Assembly: GCA_016278265.1 (NCBI GenBank)
Contig: JADQCE010000002.1
Span: 806,001 to 870,000, forward strand
Direction of reading: 5' to 3'
Length of the DNA: 64,000 bases
DNA from: Halothiobacillus sp.
Lineage (GTDB): Bacteria; Pseudomonadota; Gammaproteobacteria; Halothiobacillales; Halothiobacillaceae
Shown here: positions 32,729 to 49,796 of the stretch, piece by piece
How the letters are laid out: each line of letters opens with the position of its first letter
How positions within the stretch are numbered: the first letter of the stretch is position 1
Made by a program: the position numbers and the translations under genes
The notes under the pieces: model-generated
The model's database searches: none
What the model saw: only the letters and a program-made list of their open reading frames with translations
What the model was told of the DNA's origin: nothing

Positions 32729-32864
32729 TGTGAATTGACACATAAAGTGAAAGCATGGGAGCCGCAAGATCAACGGTTTGTGCTGTTGTGTTGCCTCAGT
32801 GACAGTTTTCGGCGGTCGGATAAAGTGAAAAAATGGCATCTGCAGAACCTATAAGATGAAAAAA
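32729..32864. repeat. Left end of the Tn7-like element with three TnsB-type sites
   Basis: Terminal TGTGAA, then TTGACACATAAAGTGAAAGC (32735-32754), GGTCGGATAAAGTGAAAAAA (32814-32833) and GAACCTATAAGATGAAAAAA (32845-32864). The sites are spread out (79 and 31 bp apart), like the spaced TnsB sites of the Tn7 left end. Confidence 0.8.
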
Positions 32865-32885
32865 GTGACTAGCCTGGAGGTAATC

Positions 32886-32963
32886 ATGATCATGATCAAA
32901 CGCAGAGCAGAAACATTGCCCCCCGTCTTGTGTGATCTACGATCGGCTCGAGTTCATGATTGA
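32886..32963 (+). CDS. Possible 25-codon leader ORF
   Basis: ATG at 32886 with GGAGG 6 bases before it; encodes MIMIKRRAETLPPVLCDLRS plus five residues. It lies between the left-end sites and the czc block. It could be a leader peptide, but there is no similarity to rely on. Confidence 0.25.
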   Translation: MIMIKRRAETLPPVLCDLRSARVHD

Positions 32964-32991
32964 AGTTGGATGGCTGAGGCTATTCCTCAGC

Positions 32992-33005
32992 GGTTGACGT
33001 CAACC
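32992..33005. promoter_or_regulatory. 14-bp perfect palindrome before the czc block
   Basis: GGTTGACGTCAACC lies 25 bp before the first cargo gene and includes a TTGACG that could serve as a -35 element. A second, smaller hairpin (CTGAGG / CCTCAG) precedes it. It may be an operator. No regulator gene is seen in the cargo. Confidence 0.4.
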
Positions 33006-33029
33006 TTCTAGAACGATTAGTGTTTGGCC

Positions 33030-33350
33030 GTGCGCGAATTCATCGTCAAATCGCTGGTACTGCTGGTCTTCTCAGCGAACCTCACCTGGGCCGCGGAGCA
33101 GGGCGTCGAGGTATTCGGTGCCTGCGCGTCGGTCGATGTGGTCTCCGCGGCCGGCAGCGATGGCGAGAGCGACCAGCATGCTCCCGGTACGACCTCCCAC
33201 CATTGCTCTCACGCCAGTGTCCACTTCACCGGGCTTCCCGACACGTCGGTGTCGATCCCGCATGGTTCGTCGTCCGCCGCCCCCCTGGCTGAGCTGACGG
33301 ACTGGCAGTCCCGAGACGTCGAGCCGCGCCTGCGCCCTCCCAGGGTCTGA
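33030..33350 (+). CDS. CzcI-like small periplasmic protein
   Basis: A 106-aa protein with a signal peptide (VREFIVKSLVLLVFSANLTW, cleavage after AA) and a mature part holding two cysteines and a histidine cluster (SHHCSHASVHF). Size, export and position directly before czcC fit CzcI, a small periplasmic protein of czc operons thought to modulate metal response. Similarity is by layout rather than strong sequence identity. GTG at 33030 or TTG at 33024 could be the start. Confidence 0.55.
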   Translation: MREFIVKSLVLLVFSANLTWAAEQGVEVFGACASVDVVSAAGSDGESDQHAPGTTSHHCSHASVHFTGLPDTSVSIPHGSSSAAPLAELTDWQSRDVEPRLRPPRV

Positions 33351-33437
33351 GCATCTTCTGATCGAAGCACCCCATCGGCCGCCGATCCTGCGGTCGAGTG
33401 GGATTTCTGTGTCTTATCTCCCGATCCGAGGTTGCTC

Positions 33438-34793
33438 ATGTCCTCCACGACGATTCCCGTCCGCCGCCGGCGGATGGCTGCCGCGCGTGCCCCGTATGGC
33501 ACCGCGCTGGCATCGCGGATTTTTTCCACGCCGATCGCCGGCGGTTGCCTGTTGATCGCCAGCGCCCTGATTGCGCCCCCGGCGTTGAGCGAGTCCCCCG
33601 ATGCCCCGCTGACCCTTCAGGGGGCGGTCGAGGCGGCTCTGTCCAACAATTTTGCCGTGCAGCAGGCCGCCTCGGCGGTCCGCATGCGTGAGGGCGAGGC
33701 CGTCCACGCCGGTCGACTCGTCCCATCGAACCCGGTGCTCTCGGCGCGTACCGCCCGTCGGGATGGCCCGGATGGCCAGTCCACCGACTTCGGTATCGCC
33801 ATCACCCAGTCGCTGTTCACCGCGGGAAAGGGTGAGCTGGCGGAACAGGCCGCCCGCAACCGCCAGGGCGAGGCCGAGCAGCGGCTGGATTACCTGCGAA
33901 CGACCGTTGCGGCCCAAACGCGATCCGCCTTCCTCCAGGTGTTGAGCGCCCAGGAGCGCCTCGACACCGCACAGCGCCTGATCACGCTCAACCGTGAGGT
34001 CCGTGATTTTGCTCAGCGGCGCCTGCAGGCCGGCGAGGGGACGCGGCTTGAGGTCAACGCCGCCGCCATCGGTGTGGGCCGAGCCGAAGCCGAACTGGCC
34101 AAGGCTCGTCAGAAGTTGAGCGCGGCTCGACTTGCCCTCACCGAGCAATTGGCGCTGGACCCGGCGGCGTCCGTGGAAATCCGTGGCCAGCTTGAACCGG
34201 CGCCTCTGGAGATCGACGACACGGACGCCTTGTTGCGCCAGGCGATGCAACGGCGGTCTGACCTCGTAGCGGCAGCCCGCTCGGTTGCCGCGGCTCGCGA
34301 CGAGCTGCGCCTGTCGAAACGCCAGTTGATGCCGAACCTGACCGTTGGCGCCTTCTACGACAAGGAGGAGTCCAACGATGTCGCCGGCGTTTCCCTCTCC
34401 GCTCCAATCCCGGTGTTCCACCAGTTCGAGGGCGAGCAGCGCTCGGCTCAGGCGCGGCTTGACCGGGCGCAGATCGAAGAGGATGCCCTGCGCCAGCAGG
34501 TCCGCCGCGAGGTGCTCATGGCGGTGGCCGATTACCGCTCGGCCCGCGAGCGGGTGGACGTGTTCGGCAGCCAGATGCTCGCGAACGCGGAAGAGAACCT
34601 CGCGTTGACCCGTCGCGCGGTCAAGGCCGGTCAACTGGGTGCGCCGGCCATTACCACCGCGCAGAACAACCTGATGGAAGTGCGCGGCCAGTATCTCGCC
34701 GCGCTCGATGACTTGATCGCGGCCGGCGCCGCACTGGAACGCAGCACCGGCGGACTGCTCCGCCTCGCGCCGACTTCCTCCACCGAATCCTGA
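33438..34793 (+). CDS. czcC: CzcC-type outer-membrane efflux channel
   Basis: A 451-aa TolC-like outer-membrane factor for metal export. A signal sequence precedes LTLQGAVEAALSNNFAVQQA (about residue 58), and the two coiled-coil repeats of the family follow, with LGVSLSAPIPVFHQFEGE-like beta segments (seen as VAGVSLSAPIPVFHQFEGEQ). It links to CzcB and CzcA to form a channel across the envelope. The ATG at 33438 is preferred over a TTG two codons earlier. Second gene of the cargo operon, 12 bp before czcB. Confidence 0.88.
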   Translation: MSSTTIPVRRRRMAAARAPYGTALASRIFSTPIAGGCLLIASALIAPPALSESPDAPLTLQGAVEAALSNNFAVQQAASAVRMREGEAVHAGRLVPSNPVLSARTARRDGPDGQSTDFGIAITQSLFTAGKGELAEQAARNRQGEAEQRLDYLRTTVAAQTRSAFLQVLSAQERLDTAQRLITLNREVRDFAQRRLQAGEGTRLEVNAAAIGVGRAEAELAKARQKLSAARLALTEQLALDPAASVEIRGQLEPAPLEIDDTDALLRQAMQRRSDLVAAARSVAAARDELRLSKRQLMPNLTVGAFYDKEESNDVAGVSLSAPIPVFHQFEGEQRSAQARLDRAQIEEDALRQQVRREVLMAVADYRSARERVDVFGSQMLANAEENLALTRRAVKAGQLGAPAITTAQNNLMEVRGQYLAALDDLIAAGAALERSTGGLLRLAPTSSTES

Positions 34794-34804
34794 GAGACCA
34801 CGTC

Positions 34805-36127
34805 ATGAACCGAACAAATCACACCTACCGTCGCTTGTCCTATTCGATTGCCCTCGCGCTGATGGTCGGCCTCGCCGGTCCCGCGGCAGCCGAGACCGGC
34901 GGGAAGCATGCCGACCACGAGGAGCCCAAGGCCGGTCACGAAGAGAAGGAGGCCGGCCATGAAGACCATCAGGGCCATGAAGAGGAGGAGACTGGCCACG
35001 AAGACCATGAGGGCCAAGGCAAAAAAGACAGTCATCAAGGCCACGAAGAGGTGGGGGCCGATGCCGTCCATCTCACTGACGAGCAACTTGCGCCGCTGAC
35101 GATCCGTACCGCGCCTGCCGAACCGGGCAGCGCCGAATCCCTGCTCAGCCTGCCGGCTACCGTGACCTTCAACGCCGACCGGGTCGCGATGATCGGCCCC
35201 CGAGTGCGAGCCAAGCTGGTTCGGATGAGCAAGGGGCTGGGCGATTCGGTCAGCGCCGGCGAGGTGATTGCAGAGATGGACAGTGTCGCCCTCGGGCAAG
35301 CCAAGGCGGCCTACCTCAAGGCCCGGGCCCGCTTCGAGACCGCGCTCTCGCATTTCGAGCGGCAGAAGGCACTTAACGCCGAGCAGATCGCAAGCGATGC
35401 CACGCTGGTCGAGGCGCGCGGGCGCTACCGCGAGGCCCGGGCCGACCGGGACGCCGCGGTCGAGACGCTGCGTCTCTACGGCCTGTCGCGCGAGGCGATC
35501 AAGGCAATCGATGCCAACAGCGAACAGCCTCTGTCCCGCTATTCGCTGACCAGCCCGATCGACGGCGTACTCCAGCGTCGCGACGTCAGCCCCGGGCAGA
35601 CGGTCGGCCCCGAAAGCACGCCGATCCATGTGGTCGATACCGACACCGTCTGGCTCGAGATGGATGCCTTCGAGAAGCAGATTGCGGACCTGGCCGTTGG
35701 TCAGACCGTACGACTGAGCCTGCCGGCGCTCCCGGAGCAAGGGTTTCAGGGTCGGGTCGACTGGATCTCCCGCGAACTGGCCGCCGGATCCCGAACGTTG
35801 ACCGTCCGCGCCGTGATCGACAACCCGGACGACCTTCTTCGGGCGGGCATGTTCGGCACGGCCACGGTCCAGACTGACGGCCACGCCGGCGCCCTTCTGG
35901 TCCCCGTTGGCGCGGTACAGCGACTCGAGGACAAGCCGCACGTCTTTGTTCTGGGCGACGAGCCGGGGGCGTTCCGCGCCAAGCCGGTCAACGTCGGGCA
36001 TGAATCGAACGGCATGGTCGAGGTGAGCTCCGGTATCGAGGCGGGACAGCCGGTGGTGGTCGAAGGCGCGTTCGACCTGATGTCCATTCTCACAGCCGGT
36101 GGCCGCAGCGCTGCCCACAGCCACTAA
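34805..36127 (+). CDS. czcB: CzcB-type periplasmic adaptor with His/Glu-rich N-terminus
   Basis: A 440-aa membrane-fusion protein of a heavy-metal RND pump. After a signal peptide (residues 1-29), residues about 34-80 form a low-complexity stretch with repeated GHE and HED units, likely to bind divalent metal before transfer to the pump. The barrel and lipoyl segments follow, for example PRVRAKLVRMSKGLGDSVSA near 135 and SPIDGVLQRRDVSPGQTVGP near 255. It ends 10 bp before czcA. Confidence 0.9.
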   Translation: MNRTNHTYRRLSYSIALALMVGLAGPAAAETGGKHADHEEPKAGHEEKEAGHEDHQGHEEEETGHEDHEGQGKKDSHQGHEEVGADAVHLTDEQLAPLTIRTAPAEPGSAESLLSLPATVTFNADRVAMIGPRVRAKLVRMSKGLGDSVSAGEVIAEMDSVALGQAKAAYLKARARFETALSHFERQKALNAEQIASDATLVEARGRYREARADRDAAVETLRLYGLSREAIKAIDANSEQPLSRYSLTSPIDGVLQRRDVSPGQTVGPESTPIHVVDTDTVWLEMDAFEKQIADLAVGQTVRLSLPALPEQGFQGRVDWISRELAAGSRTLTVRAVIDNPDDLLRAGMFGTATVQTDGHAGALLVPVGAVQRLEDKPHVFVLGDEPGAFRAKPVNVGHESNGMVEVSSGIEAGQPVVVEGAFDLMSILTAGGRSAAHSH

Positions 36128-36137
36128 GGGAGGCGGC

Positions 36138-39100
36138 ATGATCAATCGACTGATTTCAATGGCGCTCGCCAACCGGCTGCTGACACTGGTGCTGGTGCTC
36201 GCCTTGGCGGGCGGTGGCGTCTATTCCGTCCTGAAGGTGCCGATCGATTCCTTCCCGGATGTCACGCCCTCGATGGTGCAGATATATACCAGCAGCCCCG
36301 GCCTGTCGCCGGTGGACGTGGAAACCCAGGTCAGTTACCCGATCGAGATATCGATGTACGGGCTGCCCGGACTGGATCGGGTGCAGAGCACCTCGATCTT
36401 CGGATTGTCCCGGGTGAGCGTGTACTTCGAGGACGGTACCGACATCTACTTCGCTCGTCGCTTGGTGATGGAACGTCTCGCGGCGGCTCGCGAAGAGATT
36501 CCCGATGGGCTGGGCGATCCGCAGCTCGGTCCTATCACGTCGGGGCTTGGCCAGGTTTTCCTGTACGAAATCCGCAACAAGGAGGGGGCTGACCATTCCT
36601 TGATGGAGCGGCGGACCGCGCAGGACTGGATCGCCAAGCCGATGTTGCGCACGGTGCCCGGCGTGACCGGCGTGCTGTCGATCGGTGGGCAGCAGAAGCA
36701 GTACCAGGTGCGGCTGGACCAGAATGCGATGGTCGCGCGCGACATCACCGTTGCGGACGTCCGTAGCGCCATTGTGGCCAACAACCGCAACGTCGGCGCG
36801 TCGTTCATCAATCGCGGCGGCGAGGAGTACGTGGTCCGCGGTTACGGTTGGATCGATCCGGGCAAGCAGGGCCTGCAGGACATCCGCCGGATCCAGGTCA
36901 AGCGTGGCGCCAACGGTGAGCCGGTCTACCTCGATGACATCGCCGAGGTCGGATATGGTCCATCGATTCGCCGCGGCACGCTGGTGGCCAACGGCGAAGA
37001 GAGCGTCGGCGGGTATGTGCTCAAGCTGATCGGCAGCAACACCCAGGAGGTGCTCGCGGCGATCGAGGAACGGGTCAAGTCCATCCAGACCGCCTTGCCC
37101 GACGGCATGACCCTGGAACCCTTTTATTCACAGGGGCAACTGATCGAAAAGGCCGTCGGGACGGTGGAGAAGGCACTGCTCGAGGGCATGGTTCTCGTGT
37201 TGGTGCTGTTGTACTTCTTCCTCGGCAACTTGCGTTCGACGCTCATCGTGATCGCGACCCTGCCGCTGGCCGTGCTGGTTGCCTTCATCGCCATGAAGGT
37301 GACCGGCATGTCGGCCAACTTGATGAGTCTGGGTGGCCTTGCCATCGGCATCGGCATGATGGTCGACGGCGCCGTGGTGATGATGGAGAACATCTTTCGC
37401 CACATGGAGGAGAGGCGCGAAGAGCGCGTGCCACTGACGAGGCTGGTCGGCGAGGCCGCCCGCGAGGTGGCCCGCCCGATCGTGTTCGCCATCAGCATCA
37501 TCATCATCGTCTTCCTGCCGCTGTTCACGTTGCAGGGGGTCGAGGGCAAAATGTTCGCGCCAATGGCCTACACGATCTCGTTTGCCCTGGTCGGCGCGCT
37601 GGTCATGGCGCTGACCCTGGTGCCCGTGCTTTCCACACTGGTGTTCTCGAGTGACTCGGCACCCGCGGAGCCGCGGCTGGTCCGTTGGCTGCGGGCCGGG
37701 TACGTGCCGCTGCTCAAGCGTGCCATTGGGAAACCCAAGATCGTCTTCCTGATCGCGGTGGCCCTGTTCGGTTCGAGCCTGGCGCTGTTTCCGAAACTCG
37801 GCACGGAGTTCTCGCCGACGCTGCGTGAAGGCACGCTCATGGTCCGCTCGACCCTGCCGCCGGGGGCGAATCTCCCGACGTCGATCGATTACGCCGAGCG
37901 GATCGGAAAGGTGTTTTCCGAGTTCCCGGAGGTGACCGGCAGTTACGCCCGCGTCGGGCGAGCCGAGGTCGGCGGGGACCCTGAGCCGGTCAACGTGGTG
38001 GCCACGATCATCAACCTCAAGCCACTGGATGAATGGAGCAGCGGGCGTGACTACGAGGGGCTGCAGGCCGCCATGTCAGAGCGGGTCGACGAGATGTTGC
38101 CGGGCCTGGCGAACAACTTCTCGCAGCCCTTGCAGTTGCGTACCGACGAGCTGCTGTCCGGCGTGTTGGCCGAAGTCGTGATCAGCCTGTACGGCGAGGA
38201 TCTCGACCAGCTCGCCCGTTACGGCAAGGAGATCGAGGCGATCGCCAAGAATGTCGACGGGGCGGTTGACGTCCGCATGCAGCAGCAGGGCGGCAAGCCG
38301 CAGGTCGTGGTCCGGCCGGACCGTGAGCAACTGGCCCGCTACGGCATCCCGCTGGACACCGTGCTAAAGACGCTGGAAACCGGCGTGGGCGGTGCCACCG
38401 CCGGGCAGGTGTTCGAAGGCGTCCGCCGTTTCGACATCTTCATGCGCTTGAAGGAGCAGAGTCGTGACCAGGTGGATCAAATTGCCAATATGCAGTTGCG
38501 CACCGACGACGGCGCGCTGATCCCGCTCTCGCGGGTGGCGGATGTCGAAACCATCGTCGGGCCGAAGAAAGTGTCACGCTCGAATGCCAGTCGTCGTGTC
38601 TACGTGCAGCTCAACGTGCGCGGCCGTGATATGGGCGGTGTGGTTCAGGACATCCAGCAGCGCGTCGCCGACGAGGTGGACTTGCCGGCCGGCTACTACG
38701 TCGAGTACGGCGGCCAGTTCGAGAACCAGCAGCGAGCGATGAAGACGCTTTACGTGGTGGTGCCGATCACCCTGGCGCTGATCTTCCTGATGCTGTTCTC
38801 GGCGTTCGGTAGCTTGCGTTACGCCACGTTGATCTTCCTCAACGTGCCGTTTGCCGTCACTGGCGGGATATTCGCCCTGTGGATTTCCGGGTTGTACCTG
38901 TCGGTGCCCGGTGCCGTGGGCTTTATCGCCGTGTTCGGCGTGGCGGTGCTCAACGGCGTAGTGATGGTGTCCTACATCAACCAACTGCGTGAACGGGGCA
39001 TGGAGATTGCCGACGCGGTGCGCACTGGGGCCGAGCACAGGCTGCGTCCGGTCCTGATGACCGCCTCGGTGGCCATTCTGGGTCTGATTCCATTGCTTCT

Positions 39101-39245
39101 GGCCAATGGCATCGGCTCGAACGTCCAGCGCCCGCTTGCCGCGGTGGTGATTGGCGGCCTGGTGACCTCGACACTGCTGACGTTGCTTGTCCTGCCAAGC
39201 GTGTATCGCTGGTTCGCCGTGCCGCGGCGTGACGTCGACGTCTAA
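36138..39245 (+). CDS. czcA: CzcA-type heavy-metal efflux RND transporter
   Basis: A 1035-aa inner-membrane proton/cation antiporter (HME-RND), with 12 hydrophobic helices and two large periplasmic loops. The N-terminus SVLKVPIDSFPDVTP and the helix-4 motif GMMVDGAVVMMENIF (about residue 410, with the proton-relay aspartate) are typical of Co/Zn/Cd exporters rather than the Cu/Ag branch. GGGAGGCGGC precedes the ATG at 36138; an upstream ATG would overlap czcB and add an unrelated leader. It exports metal from periplasm or cytoplasm through CzcBC. Confidence 0.93.
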   Translation: MINRLISMALANRLLTLVLVLALAGGGVYSVLKVPIDSFPDVTPSMVQIYTSSPGLSPVDVETQVSYPIEISMYGLPGLDRVQSTSIFGLSRVSVYFEDGTDIYFARRLVMERLAAAREEIPDGLGDPQLGPITSGLGQVFLYEIRNKEGADHSLMERRTAQDWIAKPMLRTVPGVTGVLSIGGQQKQYQVRLDQNAMVARDITVADVRSAIVANNRNVGASFINRGGEEYVVRGYGWIDPGKQGLQDIRRIQVKRGANGEPVYLDDIAEVGYGPSIRRGTLVANGEESVGGYVLKLIGSNTQEVLAAIEERVKSIQTALPDGMTLEPFYSQGQLIEKAVGTVEKALLEGMVLVLVLLYFFLGNLRSTLIVIATLPLAVLVAFIAMKVTGMSANLMSLGGLAIGIGMMVDGAVVMMENIFRHMEERREERVPLTRLVGEAAREVARPIVFAISIIIIVFLPLFTLQGVEGKMFAPMAYTISFALVGALVMALTLVPVLSTLVFSSDSAPAEPRLVRWLRAGYVPLLKRAIGKPKIVFLIAVALFGSSLALFPKLGTEFSPTLREGTLMVRSTLPPGANLPTSIDYAERIGKVFSEFPEVTGSYARVGRAEVGGDPEPVNVVATIINLKPLDEWSSGRDYEGLQAAMSERVDEMLPGLANNFSQPLQLRTDELLSGVLAEVVISLYGEDLDQLARYGKEIEAIAKNVDGAVDVRMQQQGGKPQVVVRPDREQLARYGIPLDTVLKTLETGVGGATAGQVFEGVRRFDIFMRLKEQSRDQVDQIANMQLRTDDGALIPLSRVADVETIVGPKKVSRSNASRRVYVQLNVRGRDMGGVVQDIQQRVADEVDLPAGYYVEYGGQFENQQRAMKTLYVVVPITLALIFLMLFSAFGSLRYATLIFLNVPFAVTGGIFALWISGLYLSVPGAVGFIAVFGVAVLNGVVMVSYINQLRERGMEIADAVRTGAEHRLRPVLMTASVAILGLIPLLLANGIGSNVQRPLAAVVIGGLVTSTLLTLLVLPSVYRWFAVPRRDVDV

Positions 39246-39261
39246 CCATAGGAGACCCACC

Positions 39262-39585
39262 ATGAAGGAAATCAAGGCGTACATTCGCCAACCCATGACC
39301 GATGCGGTCGTGGATGCCTTGGAGGCCATGCCGGGGATTCCCGGCGTGGCTGTCACGCCCACCTACGGATTTGGCCACGTCGTCGATGATGGTCAGACGG
39401 CACGCGTGGAGATGACAAGACTGGAGATCGAGGTGCCCGATGCGATCGCCGACTCGGTGGTGGATTGCGTGCGCGAACACGCCCGCACCGGGGCGGGGCA
39501 CGTCGGTGATGGCCGGATTTACGTCACCGAGCTCGCGCACGCCGTTCGCATCGCGGACGGCGCCGAAGGAGAGGCGGCGTTCTAA
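39262..39585 (+). CDS. P-II-like protein of a metal-efflux operon
   Basis: A 107-aa protein starting MKEIKAYIRQPMTDAVVDAL, which follows the GlnB/GlnK fold, and ending with the P-II-like GAGHVGDGRIYVTELAHAVR. The T-loop region (about residues 36-52) is short and lacks the uridylylated tyrosine context of true GlnB. Such P-II-like proteins next to czcA genes are known as a group, but their role is poorly defined; nucleotide or metal sensing is likely. It follows czcA by 16 bp with AGGAG 9 bases before the ATG, so it is in the operon. Confidence 0.75.
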   Translation: MKEIKAYIRQPMTDAVVDALEAMPGIPGVAVTPTYGFGHVVDDGQTARVEMTRLEIEVPDAIADSVVDCVREHARTGAGHVGDGRIYVTELAHAVRIADGAEGEAAF

Positions 39586-39767: not shown

Positions 39768-40664
39768 ATGAACAAATCTTGTGACAGCGCTTGTGGCAGC
39801 GATGCAGAGGTTTCGGAGGATACGAGTGCGCAGGCCGCCTCCAAAGCTTCAGGGGCGTGGATCAGCAGGTATGACGTGCCGAAGATGGATTGTCCATCAG
39901 AAGAGCGAATGATTCGCTTGGCCTTGAGCGGTTTTAACGAGATTCGAACATTGTCGTTCGATTTGTCGAACCGCCGGTTGGAGGTCGTTCACGATGGCGA
40001 GCCTGCCCCGATCACGTCAAAGCTGGTGACCTTGGGGCTGGGCGCTTCGCTTCAAGGTACCACTGTTGCCGACACAGCGACAATCAAGGCCGTGGAGTCC
40101 TCTGCGCCGTCTGCAACACAAGAATCCGGCACTTTGCGTTGGTTGCTCGGGATCAACGCGGTTTTGTTTGTGGTGGAGCTGACAGCCGGCCTGATCGCTC
40201 AGTCCACTGGCCTGATTGGCGAATCACTCGACAATTTTGCTGATGCGGCGGTCTATGGGCTTGCTCTTTATGCGGTTGGACATAGCGTAAAAATGCAGGT
40301 GCGTGCCGCCCACCTCGCCGGCATCTTGCAATTTATTCTGGCTATTGGCGTACTCGCGGAGGTGTTTAGGCGCTTTGTGTTCGGCAGTGAACCTGAATCA
40401 CTGGTGATGATTGTTATTGCGTTCGTCGCATTGATTGCCAACACAACGGCTCTGTTACTGATATCGAAACACCGAAATGGCGGGGCTCATATGAAGGCGA
40501 GCTGGATATTTTCGGCGAATGACGTAGTGATCAACGTGGGCGTCATTACCGCCGGAGCCCTGGTCGCTTGGACTGGGTCGAATTATCCGGACCTGATTAT
40601 CGGCACCATTGCGGGGATAGTTGTGCTTAACGGTGCAAGACGTATTCTGGCGCTCAAGGCTTGA
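39768..40664 (+). CDS. Cation transporter with HMA-like N-terminal domain (CDF-related)
   Basis: A 298-aa protein. The N-terminal third (residues 28-95) resembles a heavy-metal-associated fold with RYDVPKMDCPSEERMIR, in which the usual CxxC is reduced to one cysteine, and carries an extra cysteine pair at the start (CDSAC). The rest has about six helices of the CDF type, with GLIGESLDNFADAAVYGLAL and FSANDVVINVGVITAGALVA, whose aspartates are the probable metal site. These proteins accompany czc clusters and move zinc, cobalt or cadmium. Start at the ATG at 39768. The 182 bp before it hold no further gene. Confidence 0.8.
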   Translation: MNKSCDSACGSDAEVSEDTSAQAASKASGAWISRYDVPKMDCPSEERMIRLALSGFNEIRTLSFDLSNRRLEVVHDGEPAPITSKLVTLGLGASLQGTTVADTATIKAVESSAPSATQESGTLRWLLGINAVLFVVELTAGLIAQSTGLIGESLDNFADAAVYGLALYAVGHSVKMQVRAAHLAGILQFILAIGVLAEVFRRFVFGSEPESLVMIVIAFVALIANTTALLLISKHRNGGAHMKASWIFSANDVVINVGVITAGALVAWTGSNYPDLIIGTIAGIVVLNGARRILALKA

Positions 40665-40895
40665 CTACGGTGCTTTGCATCTATTGCGTTTGGCGGGGAC
40701 TTTCTCGTTCCTCAACCTCCCCACGTTCAACGAGTCTTCAATGCCCTCCAGTCATTGGGGTGCGATTCAAAGATGGCGGCCATCCACAATGGCGGCGAGG
40801 TGAGTGCAAGGGGGCGCATGCGCCGACAGACCGGGTTTTCTGATTCAACGGGGTCAATAGTGTTGGGTCATTAGATGAGAGCAAAAGGAGGACAC

Positions 40896-41810
40896 ATGGG
40901 ACATCATCACGATCATCCCCACCTTGACCCCAGTTCTGGCGATCGTCGAGTGAGCATCGCCATCTGGGCCAACGGCATACTCACCGTTGCCCAGATAGTC
41001 GGGGGCATTCTCGCGGGGAGCCTCGCGCTGATCGCGGATGCTCTGCATAATTTCTCCGACATGGCAGCGCTTGTCATTGCCTACGCTGCCCGCAAGATCG
41101 CGCGACGCCCGCCAGACGCGACGATGACGTTTGGCTACGCCCGAATCGAGATCGTCGCCGCCCTGATCAACTACACCACCCTGATTCTGGTTGGCGCCTA
41201 TCTGATTTACGAAGGCACGATGCGTCTGATCGACCCGCCCGAGATTCAGGGCTGGATCATCGTGATCATCGGCATGGTCGCTCTTCTCGTCGATGCGCTA
41301 ACGGCCTTGCTCACCTGGTCGATGCAGAAACATAGCGTCAACATTCGCGCGCTTTTCCTGCATAACCTCTCCGATGCGCTTGCATCCATTGCCGTGATCG
41401 TCGGCGGGGCACTGATCCTGCTGTACGACATGCGCTGGGTAGACCCCGCGATCACGATCGGTATCGCGCTCTATATTCTTTATCTCGCCTTCAGCGAGAT
41501 CGGGGGACCGATCCGGACGCTGATGCTGGGTTCGCCGCCCGATATCGACGGTCAGTCAGTCATTGAAACCCTGCGTGGCGTCGACGGTGTCCATGATGTC
41601 CACCACGTTCACTTGTGGCAGATGCAGGAAAACGCCGCCGCGCTCGACTGCCATGTGGTTGTCAAGGAAGCCGATTGGTCGCGACTCGAGGCAATCAAGG
41701 CGGATATCAAGGATCGGTTGAAGACACGCTTCGACATCGGCCATTCCAGCCTGGAATTCGAGCACATCGATCACGCCCACCAGGGTGCCAACCTTTATGG
41801 GCATGAGTGA
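40896..41810 (+). CDS. czcD: CDF-family metal exporter, CzcD type
   Basis: A 304-aa cation diffusion facilitator that exports zinc, cobalt or cadmium in exchange for protons. The N-terminus is metal-binding (MGHHHDHPHLD), six helices follow, and the metal site is visible as ALIADALHNFSDMAAL (about 45) and LFLHNLSDALASIAV (about 155). The C-terminal cytoplasmic domain has VHDVHHVHLWQM. AAGGAGG lies 5 bases before the ATG at 40896, seven codons inside the longest frame. Confidence 0.9.
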   Translation: MGHHHDHPHLDPSSGDRRVSIAIWANGILTVAQIVGGILAGSLALIADALHNFSDMAALVIAYAARKIARRPPDATMTFGYARIEIVAALINYTTLILVGAYLIYEGTMRLIDPPEIQGWIIVIIGMVALLVDALTALLTWSMQKHSVNIRALFLHNLSDALASIAVIVGGALILLYDMRWVDPAITIGIALYILYLAFSEIGGPIRTLMLGSPPDIDGQSVIETLRGVDGVHDVHHVHLWQMQENAAALDCHVVVKEADWSRLEAIKADIKDRLKTRFDIGHSSLEFEHIDHAHQGANLYGHE

Positions 41811-41846
41811 CCGGCCCATGAGCGCTCGAGTCGCCGGAATCGTCCC

Positions 41847-41982: not shown

Positions 41983-42972
41983 TTAATCGGTTGCGTCGGG
42001 GATCAGGCGGTTGGGAATCCAGTGCAGGTAGGCGGCCATGCCGAACAGCTCGATAAGCGACTGGAAAACGATCACCACGATCGCTGCTTGCCAGGCCTCG
42101 GGCAAGGCCAGGGCGATCGGCAGCATGACGAACGAGTTTCGTGTGCCGAAGCTGAAGGCCAACGTCCGGGTGGACCGGTCGCGAAGACCGAAGAGCCGGC
42201 CGAGGCCTTTGCCCAGAAAGGCGGCGGCGACCAGGTAGACGATGAAAATGAGGGCCACCTGGAAAAGCACCCCGGTGAGATCAGAGACCGTCGCGACCTG
42301 TGAGGCGGCAATGACGAAGACGACCATTGCCAGCAGCGGCACGGGCAGCAGGCCCAGCCCATCGACCAACGTCTTGGCCCTGGGGCGACGCTCGGCCAAT
42401 TGCTCGGTGATCCAGGCGAGAACCAGGGGGGTAAGTATCAACCCGGCGAACGCGGTCAGCAGGTGGGTGCTGAGTGCCGCCTCGACCAGGTCGCTGCCGA
42501 GAAACAGCCACAGGTAGATCGGAAGCGCCAGCAACTGCATCAGCAGCAAGACCGGCGTGGAGGCGATCGCCCGGGCGGTGTCACCCCGACCGAGGTGGGT
42601 GAAGCTGATGAACCAGTCGGTGCAGGGAACGAGGAGTACCAGCATCACGCCGAGCTGGACGGCCGGCGACAGCGGCAAGGTAGACACCAATCCGCCGACC
42701 AGCAACGGGATTACCACGAAATTGCCGACCAGCAGGGCTCCCAGAAAGCGCAAGTCGGCCAGCCCCTGACCGACGTGAACCAGAGGCACTTGCGTGAACG
42801 TGGCATACAAGAGGGCGCCGAGTAGCGGCCAGAGCAGCGGGTCGAGCCGGGCGGCGGTCTCGGGTTGGCCAAGGCCCAGCCCCAGGCCCGCCGAGATGGC
42901 GATGAGGTAGACCCATACCTGGTGGCGTTCCATCCAGTCGCGCATTGCAATCGATCGTCCAAATAGCGGCAT
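41983..42972 (-). CDS. Arsenic resistance-type transporter (ACR3/BASS superfamily)
   Basis: A 329-aa membrane protein with ten hydrophobic helices of the bile acid:sodium symporter superfamily. The segment MLVLLVPCTDWFISFTHLGR (about residue 125) holds the cysteine and aspartate context seen in arsenite exporters and their relatives. The half-repeat GTRNSFVMLPIALALPE lies near residue 280. The ATG at 42972 (MPLFGRSIAM), with AGGGA 4 bases upstream, is chosen; ATG 42945 is an alternative. No arsR or arsC is nearby, so the true substrate is uncertain. It is the only minus-strand cargo gene. Confidence 0.7.
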   Translation of the reverse strand: MPLFGRSIAMRDWMERHQVWVYLIAISAGLGLGLGQPETAARLDPLLWPLLGALLYATFTQVPLVHVGQGLADLRFLGALLVGNFVVIPLLVGGLVSTLPLSPAVQLGVMLVLLVPCTDWFISFTHLGRGDTARAIASTPVLLLMQLLALPIYLWLFLGSDLVEAALSTHLLTAFAGLILTPLVLAWITEQLAERRPRAKTLVDGLGLLPVPLLAMVVFVIAASQVATVSDLTGVLFQVALIFIVYLVAAAFLGKGLGRLFGLRDRSTRTLAFSFGTRNSFVMLPIALALPEAWQAAIVVIVFQSLIELFGMAAYLHWIPNRLIPDATD

Positions 42973-43075
42973 GATATCCCTGTGAAAGACATCGAGGCCG
43001 GTGTTTTCGTATGGGGCGCCGGTTACCCGTCGTTCGGGTGGTGTCGGCCACGGCAAACCGTAATATCCTCCGGGC

Positions 43076-43165
43076 ATGAGTGATGCCGATCTTCCCCTGG
43101 TGATTGCCGGCCCAATGCTGCGCCGGCTTGGCCGGCGACAGTTGATCCTGACACTGGTGATCTCC
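43076..43165 (+). pseudogene. Possible 5' remnant of a PhoD-like phosphatase gene
   Basis: The first ~20 codons (MSDADLPLVIAGPMLRRLGR) resemble the start of alkaline phosphatase D-like proteins (a DLPL.LAGP.LRR pattern); similarity then stops and no phosphatase body follows. It probably marks a junction where cargo was cut and joined. The rest of the 42973-43428 interval has no gene I recognise. Confidence 0.35.
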
Positions 43166-43428
43166 GTCCTTGCAAACTTCCGGGGATGCGGTGTTCTGTC
43201 CAGAGCGATGCTCCTGGCTGATTGTCCCAGTAGTTCGGCTGATGCTTCCTGCGAGTGCCAGTCTGTTGGTACGGTCGCTCGTGCGGAGGTATTGGTAATG
43301 CCTACCTGTCGACTCATTCAGACAGGCGTGGGCGGCCTGTTTTGCACTGACAGGTTGAGTGAGTATGGCAAGTTTGGGAGTTGGCGTCTGGATCCTTAAT
43401 TCCACAGATTTTGGAAATAACGAGTAGC

Positions 43429-45915
43429 CTAGTCATTTTGTGGAAGGATCGCCTGAACTCCAATCTCGTGGTCGAACATGTAATTGCTGAATTCATCCAC
43501 CCCCGGGCCGGAAATTGGAGAAAGCTTGCCAAGACGTATGGCGTTGCCGATATCTTGCCGCGTCTTCCCAGTCAGGTTTGCTAATTCCTGTGTGCTGACT
43601 GCAAAACCCCGTAACGCTTTGATGCGTTCCAGATCTCCTCGCTTGGCATAGCGACCACCGAGACCATCGTCAACAAGTACAAGGCGTTTGGGCTTGAGCC
43701 AGTCGATTTCAAGGCGACGCTTGGCAATCCCTAGCCACTTCGTCACATGCTCTAGTCCGACGAGTTCTTTGTTATCCTGGTACGCTTCTAGATAGGCTGT
43801 TACTGTTTCTCGAGAGAAGAAACGCTTATTGCCGAGCGCGCCGCCATGCTCCAACGGTTTTAGGAATCCGCCCTTCACAAGGCGGGCGACTTTCTGGACG
43901 CTTATATTGCCCAACAACTTAGCCACATCTTCGGAATCCATATAACGGGTCTCAGCTTCAGCACGAAGACTTCGCTCACCTTTTTTTGGCCGGCCTGCGC
44001 GAGTTCTATATATCGTATTGCGCTTGATTTCGGACATGTCTAGTTGGTCAACCTGGCGCCGGGGGAATACATAGATTAGGCCACTGTCTATTCCAGGGCC
44101 AGATACTGGCGTCGCACCCGCATTCATGAGGCGTTCAGCTAAGTTTGTGACATTAAAGCCATGTTTTGTGGCAATCTCCCGGGCCAAAACATACTGCTTT
44201 CGGAAGTGAATTAATTCCAATTTTGTGATGTAGCGCTGGGGGGTTCGATGATTGATCTTACGCCTCTGGAATTGGATCAATCCGTTCGCCATGAGTTGGT
44301 AAACAGCACTCTTGTAGAGGTTGAGTTTTCTGGTTAAGTCATCCACCGTGAGCAAATTATCCCGATCAGGATCATTTATCCCGATAAAACGTAGTAGGGA
44401 GGCCTTGTCGAGATATATCCCTAAGAGACCTAGCTCCTTGTCGAATCCGACAACATTTATAATTCCGTCTAATGTTGCTTGAATTATTTGTGAAAATTTC
44501 TTGGTGGACGAGTTCTTGTGCGTTTTAAGGTACTCAGAAACTGCTACACTGCCTCGACGATCCTCGTTGCTTAATAGGACGTTTCGTTCGTCAATCTTGG
44601 CCAACATCTGGTTGAGGGTCATAGCATCGATTAGAATGTCTCGGTAGCCGTCGATCTGAGGTCCGCGAAAAGCTTTGATGACTTCGGCACTAAGCAGGAG
44701 TTTGGCATTATGAGGCGAAATGCCAAGGATGTGCGCGGCTTCCTTTAGGGTAACGAGTTGATCTAAAGTGTTCTTTAAACCTATGACGTCTTTGAAAAAG
44801 TAACAACCATCCTCTTGGGGGTCTGGCAAATGGTGCTTAGCAAGTGATGCAAAACTCGGAGCTGTTACATCGAGTAGCCCGATTGTTGATTTCGACCCTA
44901 TCAGACCGAGAGTTTCAGGTTTTCTAGGTGGGTCGAGGGGGGAGATTGCTCGGGCCTCATCCGAGGCAATAAAATCGTGGAACTTGTCCATTATTGTGTT
45001 ATAGACCGCCGGTTGCTCATCTTTATAGGGGAAGCGGTCTAGGGTCATGCTCACACGGTGCATGAGTGCAGAAGTGCTAAAAAAAGGGAATTTGGCGCGC
45101 TCAACTTTAATGACGTCTCTCAAGAATATTTCGAAGCTTAGAGGCCATTGAGAGAAGGGCGCGAAGGCTGTAGCCACATCGTTACGGCGCTCCTCGACCG
45201 GACAGTCCCTAATGCCAAGCGTGGCGCCTGACCAAGGCCGTTTCTTGGTGAGCATGTAACCTATATGGAGTAGCGCTCCAAGTGAGGCCATGTCTCTGAC
45301 AAGGGGGTGATCAGTTATCGTCCCCGTTTCAATGCACTCGGCCACCATGCGCGATACGAGGAGCTTCTCCTCATCTGCACTGACGGGCTTGACAGCCGTG
45401 AGATCCGCGTTGCACCGGCACTTGGACACACTTGGTCTCGCCCAGTTGATATACTCTCCGCATGCCGTGCATAAACTGGTCAGCTCAATCCCATGCGCGT
45501 GACAGGCGGTATAGGGTGCGAGGTCCCATAGTTGCCGGTGATATTCACTCTCTGTAAGGCACTTAACGCAAACAGCGGGTTTTCGGAATGAGAGCAGGTT
45601 GCTTGGGACCTGGGCTAGGCCGACTCTCAGCCGAAGTTCGGAGTCTGTTGAAACTGGTTGATAGCTCAGTCCCTCAAGGCTTTCACTCGTCTTGTCGACG
45701 ATCGCGGCCAAGGGTTTGAGGTTAGCCTGGCCTTTGGCGATGGGTGGGATGCGTGAAAGCCAGCTATTGCTATTAGCCAAACCGGTCAGCCCAAGGATCA
45801 CACTGGGCGAGTCATACGCATTGGCTTCAGTTAGGCGTACTAGGTAACCCGGCAGACTTTCGTCCGACATCGGGGCTGGTCGGATTAGCAGTTTTCGTCT
45901 GGCCGTCTGCGTCAT
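43429..45915 (-). CDS. tniQ: TniQ/TnsD-family target-selection protein, long form
   Basis: An 828-aa protein, last of the tns genes. The N-terminal part is a TniQ domain starting RPAPMSDESLPGYLVRLTEA, with a zinc finger formed by CVKC (about 115), CHAHG (about 138), CTACGEY (about 148) and CRC (about 165). The C-terminal half is a string of helix-turn-helix modules near residues 387, 535, 600, 675, 735 and 790. Two of them carry the same PxSGPGxD element (about 605 and 803), and a third has GPQIDGY. Such proteins read a fixed attachment site and recruit the ATPase. The unusually long DNA-reading part suggests an extended target, presumably the 3' end of nrdB. It starts 19 bp after tnsC ends. 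Confidence 0.85.
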   Translation of the reverse strand: MTQTARRKLLIRPAPMSDESLPGYLVRLTEANAYDSPSVILGLTGLANSNSWLSRIPPIAKGQANLKPLAAIVDKTSESLEGLSYQPVSTDSELRLRVGLAQVPSNLLSFRKPAVCVKCLTESEYHRQLWDLAPYTACHAHGIELTSLCTACGEYINWARPSVSKCRCNADLTAVKPVSADEEKLLVSRMVAECIETGTITDHPLVRDMASLGALLHIGYMLTKKRPWSGATLGIRDCPVEERRNDVATAFAPFSQWPLSFEIFLRDVIKVERAKFPFFSTSALMHRVSMTLDRFPYKDEQPAVYNTIMDKFHDFIASDEARAISPLDPPRKPETLGLIGSKSTIGLLDVTAPSFASLAKHHLPDPQEDGCYFFKDVIGLKNTLDQLVTLKEAAHILGISPHNAKLLLSAEVIKAFRGPQIDGYRDILIDAMTLNQMLAKIDERNVLLSNEDRRGSVAVSEYLKTHKNSSTKKFSQIIQATLDGIINVVGFDKELGLLGIYLDKASLLRFIGINDPDRDNLLTVDDLTRKLNLYKSAVYQLMANGLIQFQRRKINHRTPQRYITKLELIHFRKQYVLAREIATKHGFNVTNLAERLMNAGATPVSGPGIDSGLIYVFPRRQVDQLDMSEIKRNTIYRTRAGRPKKGERSLRAEAETRYMDSEDVAKLLGNISVQKVARLVKGGFLKPLEHGGALGNKRFFSRETVTAYLEAYQDNKELVGLEHVTKWLGIAKRRLEIDWLKPKRLVLVDDGLGGRYAKRGDLERIKALRGFAVSTQELANLTGKTRQDIGNAIRLGKLSPISGPGVDEFSNYMFDHEIGVQAILPQND

Positions 45916-45934
45916 TGTGTATACCCCATGGCAA

Positions 45935-46951
45935 TCAACTGCGATTTAGCACCTCGGAGGCAGTCAGTTTTTTCTGTTTGGGGCGAATCCTGTTGCTGGT
46001 ACCAAGCGGATTTTCGAACTCTTTCTGTACCATCGGCCACGTTTTGATGGCTTCCAGGTCCACTTGAAACGGGTTCTGAGGGAACTCGTCGCCTTGGATG
46101 CTTCTCCGCTCGTACGCCCGGGCAAAATGACCAGCATCCCATTTGTGATCACCATCCTGAATGGCGAATCGGGCCGCCTGCTTGATCAAGGTCATGACAT
46201 TGGCCGCTGTGCCATGACTGGCGATGTAGAGAGGAAACGCGAGATCTATTTCAGCCAAGTGAGATGCAGCTTGCAAAGGAAGCTTCTTTTCGACCTCGGC
46301 TAGGAATTTTCGGAATTCAACCTGTCCCTGATCTGTTTTCCATGAAAACGGGGCGAGGCGTCTTCGCACCATGAAACGGCGTTTAAGTTGAGGACTCGTT
46401 TCAAGGATAGCCTCTGACTCTGGCATCCCGATCAATATCATCGGCACCTTCGTGCTATTGATCAATGACTTAATCCAGTCAGAAACGTCCTGAACAACAC
46501 GTTGGGTCTTGTTGTCGATCAAGTGCTGGAACTCGTCCAGCAGAATGAGTTCAACGCCGCAATGTTCGATCAGATGGGCTAGGCGCTGACCTTGGGTGAC
46601 AGTGGTTCCGCGATCAGGAGCTGGGTCACCAAGAGAGTCCAGTAGGGCCGTGGCGACACCCTTGATAGTTGCTTTGGCAGGGATCTCTGCGTGAAATACA
46701 GGTACATGGGTTCGATCCGTCTCATCGATGGGCGGGTACTGTTCCAGGTATTGCTGTATCAAACTGGTCTTTCCGACACCAGAACTACCGGTTAGGAACA
46801 TACATTGGGGTTCTGCCGTGATTTTCGAGGCCTCGTGGCACTCCCCAATGAGTTCTACCAGTTCCCTGATGCGCGGGTACATGACATAAATCTGTTCGAT
46901 CCAGCGAATGCGATCGAGCTCATCGTTCGCAAGCTCTCCAAATTTACTCAC
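45935..46951 (-). CDS. tnsC: TnsC/TniB-family AAA+ ATPase
   Basis: A 338-aa AAA+ protein that links target selection to the transposase. Walker A is FLTGSSGVGKTSLIQ (about residues 50-64) and Walker B is LILLDEFQHLI (about 136-146). The size is that of TniB-type ATPases, shorter than the 555-aa TnsC of Tn7, lacking the extra N- and C-terminal parts. It overlaps tnsB by 8 bases, so it is translationally coupled. Confidence 0.9.
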   Translation of the reverse strand: MSKFGELANDELDRIRWIEQIYVMYPRIRELVELIGECHEASKITAEPQCMFLTGSSGVGKTSLIQQYLEQYPPIDETDRTHVPVFHAEIPAKATIKGVATALLDSLGDPAPDRGTTVTQGQRLAHLIEHCGVELILLDEFQHLIDNKTQRVVQDVSDWIKSLINSTKVPMILIGMPESEAILETSPQLKRRFMVRRRLAPFSWKTDQGQVEFRKFLAEVEKKLPLQAASHLAEIDLAFPLYIASHGTAANVMTLIKQAARFAIQDGDHKWDAGHFARAYERRSIQGDEFPQNPFQVDLEAIKTWPMVQKEFENPLGTSNRIRPKQKKLTASEVLNRS

Positions 46952-49013
46952 CCCTCTCCTCCTCTCCTTTGCGTTTCAGCGTATATCCTGCCTCCCAGCC
47001 ATCGGTGTCTTCGTACAACGACGCAAGGAGTTCATCCTCGCTGGGCTTGGCGCTTTGTGGTGTCGCATCAGCAACAGTTTCTTCCTGATTAGTTTCATTC
47101 TCTTGAATGAGGTCATCTCTTGAGATGCTTTCCTCTGAAATCGGTCCCGTGCGCGAATCTTTGGTCTTCTGGGAAACATTGTTGAATCGTGCCAGCTTCT
47201 GGGTTCCCTTGCGTTTTTTAATTAGGCCGCGGTCGTTTTCGATGACCTTCTGGATTCGCTCTTGGGCTTCGAATAAGGCCGCCATATTGACGGTGGACTG
47301 GGCGTGTTCGCGTGCGTTGTTTTTAATGACTTGGTGTTGGAACAGCGTCTTGCCTGCGGTGTACTCCTGATTCACGGCCGGAATCCGGATGTATTCCTGT
47401 TTGATCGGGTCCAGAACATAGATATGCGAGATATCCGAGGGATCGATTTTGATGTCGACCACAGGTTTGTCCACCAAGCGGCGACGTAGGTGAGCGAGGC
47501 TGGGTGAGTTATAGCGCAGTCCTTCGAACTGGACGCCAGTGGGTTGAATCTTTCGCGTCTCTTGCAAGCCGAGCACTACTTCAAGTTCGCTCTTGCTTCT
47601 GGGGAGGATCGGGGGGAATTTTTCAACCGCCTTGCGCCATTTGGCAGACGGGGTGTCTTCGATGCGTTCATTGAACGTCTGCTGATAAATATCGACAACC
47701 CACATATGCATGATCTCCACCAAAGACGAGAACATGATGACCGCGTCCTTGGCTGGATTGTACTCAGCCAACTGAACCAGCTCCTTCATGCTTTTGCCGG
47801 GATTGCTGTCGATCAACTTCCTGTTTACGGTACCGAAGTAGCGTTCGATCGATGATTTGTACCAAGGTTGCCGGGGCGGTGAATACTGGATGTTTATACC
47901 TAGTTGAAGGCAAGCCTCCTCAAATGCTGTGCTGTAAAATTCCTTGCCATTGTCGACTACAAGTGTCTCGAATACGCCGTAAACATCCCAAGTATTCCTT
48001 ATCTTGGGGTAACTCGCGTGTAGCGCCACCTTCGGCAAAATGGCATGTTTCAAGCATTCCATGACGCTAATCGCACTGGGCGGCGTGAAGCTGATGTAAA
48101 AGCCTACGACCGATCGCGTGAAGTGATCCAAGGCAACGGTCAGATAAGGCCGCCCTAGGGGCAGGTGGCTCTCATCATCAATTACGAACATGTCTAGTTG
48201 GGTGTGGTCTATCTCCACACGCTCCAAGGGGCGCGTTGTGACCACGCCTTGGCCATAGGCACGAAACTCGCGTTCGGCCGCACGCTTGCCCCTACGCTTT
48301 TCCGTGATCAGCATAGGGTCAAGCTTGCGCACCTGTCTGAGCACTGTTCGATAGGAAGGAGCTACCAAGGCATCATCTGGGTTGCGCATCCGATTCTCTT
48401 TGTGAATACGCAACAGAATGTCCTCGTAGACCGACGCAACACTCGGAGCGCTCAGACGGAAGAAAACCGAGTCAATCGACTGCTTAATGATTGACGTCAC
48501 TCCTTGACTAAGACGGTTGCGACGATTGCCTTTGCTCGCATTGTCGTCCAAGAGGGCTCGGATATCTGATCCAGCCTGCTTGTGGGCACGGATCCATCGA
48601 TACAATGAAATCCAAGAGGGCGGTTTGGGATCGCCAATCTCTTTAGCCACATTGGCAATGACGGGCGTCAAGGTTTTTTCCGTGAAGGATTCCAAATTAA
48701 GTTCATTGACCGCTTGAACGTATTTAAGGCGTCGCAATCCTTTTTTCTTTTGCTCTGCAGGTTTGGAGGCAAAGTCTGCCAAGACCCAATGGCTCACATT
48801 CGGAGTGGTTGTCGTTGCCTCTTCGTAGCTGACAAATTCGATTGCCTCTCGAACCAACAGTTCAACAGCTTCCTTCATGGGCATAGAGATGACTTGGCCA
48901 TCACTTAGCCTGCGAAGCCTCAATACTTGAGTATTAGGGTCTGAGCTGTCGATGTGCCAGATGCCGCCGCGGTAGGCGATGTGGTGGCCAGGAGTAAACT
49001 GGTAACGGCTCAT
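46944..49013 (-). CDS. tnsB: TnsB/TniA-family DDE transposase
   Basis: A 689-aa retroviral-integrase-type transposase. The catalytic triad is visible: Asp in RVEIDHTQLDMF (about 268), Asp in LVVDNGKEFYS (about 351) and Glu in WYKSSIERYFG (about 388). The N-terminal HTH region binds the end repeats, and the C-terminal beta-barrel region and tail contact TnsC. It cleaves the 3' ends and joins them to target DNA; with TnsA making the 5' cuts, transposition should be cut-and-paste. It overlaps tnsA by 4 bases. Confidence 0.93.
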   Translation of the reverse strand: MSRYQFTPGHHIAYRGGIWHIDSSDPNTQVLRLRRLSDGQVISMPMKEAVELLVREAIEFVSYEEATTTTPNVSHWVLADFASKPAEQKKKGLRRLKYVQAVNELNLESFTEKTLTPVIANVAKEIGDPKPPSWISLYRWIRAHKQAGSDIRALLDDNASKGNRRNRLSQGVTSIIKQSIDSVFFRLSAPSVASVYEDILLRIHKENRMRNPDDALVAPSYRTVLRQVRKLDPMLITEKRRGKRAAEREFRAYGQGVVTTRPLERVEIDHTQLDMFVIDDESHLPLGRPYLTVALDHFTRSVVGFYISFTPPSAISVMECLKHAILPKVALHASYPKIRNTWDVYGVFETLVVDNGKEFYSTAFEEACLQLGINIQYSPPRQPWYKSSIERYFGTVNRKLIDSNPGKSMKELVQLAEYNPAKDAVIMFSSLVEIMHMWVVDIYQQTFNERIEDTPSAKWRKAVEKFPPILPRSKSELEVVLGLQETRKIQPTGVQFEGLRYNSPSLAHLRRRLVDKPVVDIKIDPSDISHIYVLDPIKQEYIRIPAVNQEYTAGKTLFQHQVIKNNAREHAQSTVNMAALFEAQERIQKVIENDRGLIKKRKGTQKLARFNNVSQKTKDSRTGPISEESISRDDLIQENETNQEETVADATPQSAKPSEDELLASLYEDTDGWEAGYTLKRKGEEERGE

Positions 49014-49681
49014 GATGATTCCTCCTGAGCAGACCAGGCCGCTTTGACCGACATGTCAGGCCGAATCGGCTTGTCCAGGTCAAACACTATTTGACCTTGG
49101 TACATCAGGGCGTAGCAGACCGACCGGTCGGCACCATAGTCGGCACACTGGGCAATCAACTCTTCCATGGAAAGCTCGGAATGTGTGGGCACGTTGTGGT
49201 GCAGTCCAGCCACCACCAAAGGGTCGAGTGGTGTTTGTGCATAACGGTAGAGCAGCTTGATGTTGTTGAGTCGGTGTCCTTCCCGAATCTGGCTACCGGT
49301 GCGGAGGAGGTATTCGCACCCCCGCGCGTGGAAGAAGGCGCTGCGAGCCTGATGCAGGCGAATGAACTCGTCCTTCATAGCCTTCTCGTCCGGCTTGATC
49401 TCGACGTACTGCGGAAGGTCCAATCCTCGGCGTATGATCTCGAAGTCCGGGGTATGTTTGAGGATCTTGTCCTCGAAGCTGTATGAAATCGTGATTGGCT
49501 GGGATCGGTAGGCGATGACATCCTGGTCATGCTCCAAAATGTAACAGTAGTCCCTTTCCAGTTGGGATTCCCACCAGACTGCTTTCTTCATCTTTACGCT
49601 CATGAACTGGCCAATGACGCGATCGCGTCGGCCTCGGTTCGTGATCTTGCGTGCTCCATGCTTTGCCACTGAAAACCTCAT
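49010..49681 (-). CDS. tnsA: TnsA-family endonuclease
   Basis: A 223-aa restriction-endonuclease-fold protein that cuts the 5' ends of the element. The active-site pattern is visible: Glu in VWWESQLERDYCYI (about 38), Asp in KHTPDFEI (about 75) and Lys in YVEIKPDEKA (about 95). The ATG at 49681 follows a T run without a good ribosome-binding site; a GTG at 49705 lies within a hairpin and is the alternative. The presence of TnsA separates this element from Tn5053-type elements, which lack it. Confidence 0.88.
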   Translation of the reverse strand: MRFSVAKHGARKITNRGRRDRVIGQFMSVKMKKAVWWESQLERDYCYILEHDQDVIAYRSQPITISYSFEDKILKHTPDFEIIRRGLDLPQYVEIKPDEKAMKDEFIRLHQARSAFFHARGCEYLLRTGSQIREGHRLNNIKLLYRYAQTPLDPLVVAGLHHNVPTHSELSMEELIAQCADYGADRSVCYALMYQGQIVFDLDKPIRPDMSVKAAWSAQEESS

Positions 49682-49708
49682 AAAAAAAGGGCGCCCTACG
49701 GACACCCC
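49682..49708 (-). terminator. Terminator-like hairpin between the right end and tnsA
   Basis: On the minus strand GGGTG pairs with CGCCC (one G-U pair), followed by seven T residues that abut the tnsA ATG. GGGCGCCC can also pair with itself. It would stop transcripts entering from nrdB or act as an attenuator of tnsA. Confidence 0.45.
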
Positions 49709-49727
49709 TTTAGGTCAAGCTCTTTCC

Positions 49728-49796
49728 GTTTTCAAGTTATTCGTCACTTTATTTCACTTTATGTGTCTCAGTTTTCACCTTATTCGTCACTTCACA
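49728..49796. repeat. Right end of the Tn7-like element with three adjoining TnsB-type sites
   Basis: Read inward on the minus strand: TGTGAA, then GTGACGAATAAGGTGAAAAC (49790-49771), TGAGACACATAAAGTGAAAT (49770-49751) and GTGACGAATAACTTGAAAAC (49747-49728). The sites are packed head to tail, unlike the spread sites of the left end, matching the asymmetric ends of Tn7. Confidence 0.82.

Follow-up and report, generated by a model that had tools for sequence, protein, structure and literature searches.

A Tn7-like transposon inserted behind nrdB in Guyparkeria, with distant relatives behind the same gene

The stretch of DNA analysed here (64,000 bp, referred to as the window) belongs to a Guyparkeria genome and contains, on its minus strand, a complete Tn7-like transposon of 17,068 bp directly behind nrdB. 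This is very probably a cut-and-paste element with a programmed attachment site at the 3' end of nrdB and a target selector of the TniQ/TnsD type. In our judgement the family is real and Tn7-like, its attachment gene and its selector family being new; nrdB behaves for it like glmS does for Tn7. Copies of the element have inserted at different points behind nrdB in other Guyparkeria genomes, and related elements with other ends and other cargo occupy the same place, in the same orientation, in further genera and in a second order of the class.

The element in the window

Read from nrdB along the minus strand, the order is right end, tnsA, tnsB, tnsC, tniQ, cargo and left end. Apart from the cargo, which is listed further below, the following features were assigned:

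49810..51054, minus strand: nrdB, the attachment gene (NF005550, 1e-199); the real start lies inside this frame
49797..49801, no strand: 5-bp flank on the nrdB side, ACGAC on the minus strand, imperfect target duplication
32729..49796, minus strand: whole Tn7-like transposon, right (tnsA-side) end towards nrdB; tips are the same in genomes G002 and G005
49725..49796, minus strand: right end with tip TGTGAAGTGAC; 25-nt direct repeats at 49725-49749 and 49768-49792, putative TnsB sites
49682..49712, minus strand (the strand of nrdB): terminator-like hairpin and T run in the right end, just before tnsA; -15.5 kcal/mol, custom scan
49010..49705, minus strand: tnsA, endonuclease (PF08722, TnsA N-terminal, 1.8e-8)
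46944..49013, minus strand: tnsB, DDE transposase (PF00665, rve, 1.1e-8; PF09299, Mu C-terminal, 4.3e-12)
45935..46951, minus strand: tnsC, TniB-type AAA+ ATPase (PF05621, 8e-34)
43429..45915, minus strand: tniQ, target selector of the TniQ/TnsD type, 828 aa (PF06527, 6e-17; PF12728, HTH_17, 5e-17)
32729..32864, plus strand: left end with tip TGTGAATTGAC; repeats like ATAAAGTGAAA at 32742, 32820 and 32851, putative TnsB sites
32724..32728, no strand: 5-bp flank beyond the left end, ACCAA on the minus strand, imperfect duplication with 3/5 matches
32701..32725, minus strand: displaced nrdB terminator hairpin, which lies directly behind nrdB in the empty site of genome G009

The right tip begins at position 49796 on the minus strand, 13 bp from the stop codon of nrdB (TAA, 49810-49812), and the left tip begins at 32729. 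Both ends carry repeats and TGT..ACA tips, as is usual for Tn7-like elements, and we infer that the repeats are the binding sites of TnsB. The first-pass annotation had described a complete element with two ends, four transposition genes and cargo, whose right end with tnsA lies 13 bp past the nrdB stop; its borders, genes and coordinates proved right. The two 5-bp flanks of the window copy differ (ACGAC versus ACCAA); therefore, its target duplication has probably decayed or been exchanged.

The transposition genes are those of a Tn7-like element: a TnsA next to a DDE-type TnsB, a TniB-type ATPase and a TniQ selector. The true start of tnsA is probably an ATG eight codons inside the called frame. 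In the 828-residue TniQ protein, the TniQ domain contains conserved cysteines, and the family profile matches solved TniQ proteins. The C-terminal half comprises one clear HTH_17 domain and two weaker ones; a search with the family profile against solved structures gave none that covers this half. Among the genes between the ends there is no cas effector gene, which would characterize a CRISPR-associated transposon, and no tnsE was seen there; note that a distant tnsE can escape detection. The element is also not a Tn7 in the strict sense, which would lie behind glmS under the direction of TnsD.

Two side observations concern these proteins. Plasmids of Acinetobacter baumannii (records H6-H9) carry an annotated "excisionase" gene that aligns with the window TniQ over residues 522-801, i.e. 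its C-terminal part without the TniQ domain. For the window TnsB, the nearest relatives on plasmids are cyanobacterial (Allocoleopsis, Nostoc, Calothrix; records H13-H16; 35-41%), and they are nearer to it than the TnsB proteins of the other nrdB-linked elements.

Insertions behind nrdB in Guyparkeria and in distant genomes

Three Guyparkeria genomes, namely the window genome (G000), G002 and G005, carry the same element with the same tips behind nrdB. The G002 copy (17,106 bp) is 99.2% identical to the window copy from end to end. Nearly all differences are found in the last 3.5 kb, which comprise czcB/czcC and the left end (window 32729-36300), and the other 13.5 kb show near-zero differences, so that the history of the cargo side is a different one. 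In G002, 12 bp separate the nrdB stop from the right tip, and the element is flanked on both sides by CAAAC, a perfect 5-bp duplication. In G005, the right tip lies 20 bp after the stop, inside the terminator stem, and both flanks read GCCCG, again a perfect duplication; the left end is located on a second contig. Because the insertion points and the perfect duplications both differ, the flanking sequences indicate that these two copies go back to separate transposition events within a span of 8 bp.

An empty site is found in G009, where the junction between nrdB and its terminator is uninterrupted (GCCAGAACGAGC-AAACCCGCCGAAAGGCGGG). Here, the nrdB stop is followed by 12 bp and then by the hairpin terminator AAACCCGCCGAAAGGCGGGTTTTTTG, which resembles the hairpin beyond the left end in the window. 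The first-pass annotation had proposed to look for such a junction in related genomes; it had also stated that the nrdB site should be given up if the borders of an empty site did not match or if relatives carried the same ends elsewhere without preferring nrdB. The outcome is favourable, as G009 is empty and the tips are the same in G002 and G005. In every Guyparkeria genome compared, the region 3' of nrdB is variable.

The search for further elements straight after nrdB, likewise suggested by that annotation, was successful in six distant genomes in addition to G002 and G005. With the TniQ profile, 4 of 369 genomes of a class sample (E<=1e-20), 8 of 85 genomes in the order of G051 (E<=1e-8) and 1 of 398 genomes of a phylum sample (E<=1e-25) were detected. 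The family is rare, because the search of the 398 phylum genomes gave no further member. It has eleven members: the three Guyparkeria copies and eight long relatives, which are 21-24% identical to the window TniQ. Five of the distant genomes have nrdB and tniQ on one contig (G017, G051, G444, G445, G459); in all of these, both genes are on the same strand, and tniQ follows nrdB at a distance of 10 to 56 kb that is filled with cargo. In G400, the contig with nrdB holds the right end, and tniQ is found on a different contig. The elements of these six genomes, which represent further genera and a second order of the class, lie behind nrdB in the same orientation and differ from the window element in their end sequences and cargo. 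G413 was not counted, as its nrdB contig stops 860 bp behind nrdB. G358 possesses a full-length TniQ relative in an element located elsewhere, and no nrdB was found in that genome; therefore, one cannot read the target from the architecture alone. Still more distant TniQ proteins occur in the class (G133, G249, G153, G165), and none of them is encoded close to nrdB. In the TniQ tree, the branches are too long to tell whether nrdB targeting arose once.

In order to locate the right ends in G051 and G444, a matrix was built exclusively from the left-end boxes behind tniQ, and everything before tniQ was scanned on the other strand. The best three sites in the 27.9 kb of G051 lie 63-137 bp, and the best two sites in the 58.9 kb of G444 lie 71-100 bp after the nrdB stop. 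For G445, a matrix pooled from left-end boxes placed the best two sites 101 and 145 bp after the stop; when the matrix was derived solely from the three boxes of G445, the right-end sites ranked within the top eight, which is not decisive. G459 has three direct repeats about 30-75 bp behind the stop; a matching left end is not readable, as the contig ends 1.6 kb after tniQ. For G444, G445, G051 and G459, target duplications could not be fixed.

G017 and G400 belong to different orders; their right ends are alike (TGTG...CACAGCATTAAGTG) and begin 2 bp (G017) and 1 bp (G400) after the nrdB stop; in the clear cases, the insertion distance thus ranges from 1 to 20 bp. A left end of the G017 element was found neither with the left end of G400 nor by an inverted-repeat search. 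The far end of the G400 element reads ...GTCACA-TTGAT, and TTGAT is also the pentamer immediately ahead of the right tip, i.e. a perfect duplication across two contigs. This TTGAT is directly followed by another right end, whose four boxes are of the G051 type (positions: about 1490 in L120, reverse strand, after orientation; about 16,889 in contig C490, L119/L132). G400 seems to harbour two unlike elements of two subfamilies stacked behind nrdB, if the contigs join as we suppose. We also considered that the shared 13-bp tip of G400 might be native DNA behind nrdB, and rejected this reading: the same tip and following sequence occur in G017, a member of another order, and G400 contains the second box array. 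As a separate observation, a sequence from downstream of nrdB that is single in related genomes matches three places beyond the element of G444 (contig C1, oriented positions 62,467-73,931, L109-L111), as if an array had been built by repeated insertions or duplications.

Five of the eight right ends (window, both of G400, G444, G445) contain, within about 120 bp of the tip and on the strand of nrdB, a hairpin (-15 to -25 kcal/mol) with T residues behind it. In a control, 40 of 400 random 300-bp stretches had a hairpin of -8 or better; the criteria were set after some of the hairpins had been seen, and the window hairpin was not called by a stricter terminator scan. It is a reasonable guess, and no more, that the right-end hairpin may replace the nrdB terminator displaced by the insertion. 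If so, a terminator in the element end would show how such elements spare the gene they dock behind.

Proposed target recognition and alternative explanations

The only DNA common to all host sites is the coding end of nrdB for YQTGGAL(S/T)W; the downstream sequences and terminators differ. Since only this coding end is shared, since TniQ has helix-turn-helix domains and since its length fits that of direct selectors, we infer that TniQ is the protein reading the nrdB end. According to the mechanism we propose, the 828-residue TniQ would bind the conserved codons for YQTGGALxW via its C-terminal helix-turn-helix domains and load TnsC there. TnsA and TnsB would then insert the element at a distance of 12-20 bp from the stop, its tnsA-side end turned towards nrdB and with a 5-bp duplication, such that NrdB stays intact; in further genera and a second order of the class, related elements would target this gene as well. 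TniQ is linked to nrdB by association, and both the choice of bases that are read and present-day activity of the element are presumed. The imperfect duplication in the window (3/5), the full-length relative in G358 and the variable distance to the stop, which appears looser than for Tn7, do not favour this reading.

Alternatively, nrdB could be a mere recombination hotspot, at which one old insertion was spread among Guyparkeria by homologous exchange of the nrdB region and not by active targeting. Such a scenario is in agreement with the near identity of the element between strains, the variable region behind nrdB and the imperfect window duplication; however, it is largely refuted by the distances of 12 and 20 bp in G002 and G005 with their different perfect duplications. 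The dissimilar elements that a different genus and a different order carry behind nrdB also speak against it, and we regard it as exceedingly improbable. That the terminator hairpin or other DNA behind nrdB is the target, and not the coding end, might be concluded from G005, where the element interrupts the terminator stem. Yet the sequences behind nrdB in distant genomes are unlike, only the coding end being shared, and the elements of G017 and G400 inserted 1-2 bp after the stop; we consider a downstream target very unlikely. Finally, the site might be chosen by a factor other than TniQ, i.e. a partner protein or a guide RNA. The precedent is TnsF in Tn6022 (PMC10293859), and the C-terminal half of TniQ lacks a solved relative. 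On the other hand, a TniQ of 828 residues with HTH domains fits the direct selectors (PMC10293859), and everything encoded between the ends can be assigned to tns genes or transport cargo, cas genes being absent, so that we deem another selecting factor highly unlikely. Programmed attachment at nrdB by way of TniQ is the reading we prefer; independent insertions at the same gene end and in the same orientation are what one expects of site-specific attachment.

A broader proposal is more tentative, and we give it somewhat less than an even chance: nrdB could be a second "glmS", a chromosomal dock shared by four or more Tn7-like subfamilies that differ in their transposase sites. These would stack as islands of metal efflux, CBASS and other accessory genes, and their right ends would bring a replacement terminator for the essential gene that they cut off from its own.

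Known systems, cargo and neighbouring sequences

The Tn5053/Tn402 family (TniABQ) shares with the window element a TniB-type AAA+ protein and TniQ. It is not known to carry tnsA and hunts res sites, whereas the window element has tnsA and its site is the chromosomal nrdB. The likeness to Tn7 at attTn7 includes TnsA, TnsB, TnsC, a selector with a TniQ domain, arrays of TnsB sites, TGT..ACA tips, the 5-bp duplication and a position immediately downstream of an essential gene, towards which the tnsA-side end is turned. Tn7 inserts downstream of glmS, the conserved coding end of which is bound by TnsD (PMC2918618). In contrast, the target here is nrdB, the 828-aa selector has domains of the HTH_17 type, no tnsE was seen, and the insertion point varies by 8 bp between copies. 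Like Tn6022 with TnsF at comM, the nrdB elements are heteromeric, Tn7-like and build islands at a single conserved gene; however, Tn6022 interrupts comM and TnsF selects its site (PMC10293859), whereas nrdB is intact and TniQ is the sole candidate selector. Tn7-like elements at parE or tRNA genes likewise have a TniQ of the TnsD type, the C-terminal DNA-binding part of which is lineage-specific (PMC11406308), and differ in the target gene. A published survey ties TniQ length to direct target selection (PMC10293859).

In full-text searches, no open paper came up in which Tn7-like elements are connected with nrdB, and the main texts of large Tn7 surveys and of a 2024 review do not name nrdB; an unremarked listing in supplementary tables or closed papers is possible. 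The remark in the first-pass annotation that nrdB is not a described attachment site holds within open-access main texts and not beyond, and nrdB appears not to have been reported yet as an attachment site of Tn7-like transposons. Known protein-read attachment sites of these elements are few (glmS, parE, tRNA genes, comM and some others). TnsD-type selectors that read the end of nrdB, an essential gene for the supply of DNA precursors, would provide a new, naturally safe and specific insertion address, and a diverged set of selectors would help to learn how the C-terminal half reads DNA.

The cargo of the window element consists of:

41983..43317, minus strand: SBF/ACR3-like transporter (PF01758, 7e-11; acr3, 1e-6, below cut-off)
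40875..41810, plus strand: CDF cation efflux protein (TIGR01297, 3e-72)
39768..40664, plus strand: HMA-CDF cation efflux protein (PF01545, PF00403)
39187..39585, plus strand: P-II-like small protein (match below cut-off)
36099..39245, plus strand: CzcA/CusA RND pump (TIGR00914, above cut-off)
34805..36127, plus strand: CzcB-like adaptor (TIGR01730, above cut-off)
33432..34793, plus strand: CzcC/TolC-like outer membrane protein (TIGR01844, 6.6e-24, below cut-off)

The nrdB-linked element of G017 (L057, L058, contig C7) carries a CBASS operon (phospholipase, cyclase, E1-E2) and an ATPase-nuclease pair resembling PDC-M01/Septu; therefore, nrdB is also a site of defence islands. It would be a new place to seek defence and metal-resistance islands in Gammaproteobacteria.

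Some further observations concern the surroundings. G005 contains a second, unrelated Tn7-like element away from nrdB (contig C14, L063, about 44-48 kb), whose TnsB is 30% identical. Directly behind the displaced nrdB terminator, the window has two overlapping membrane-type ORFs of no known family (31323-32676), and this spot holds different sequence in other Guyparkeria genomes. A dispersed repeat of about 0.2-0.7 kb is located at window positions 30174-30904, 27598-27882 and 23974-24571; it occurs in several copies and both orientations, and it is also found behind nrdB in other Guyparkeria genomes.
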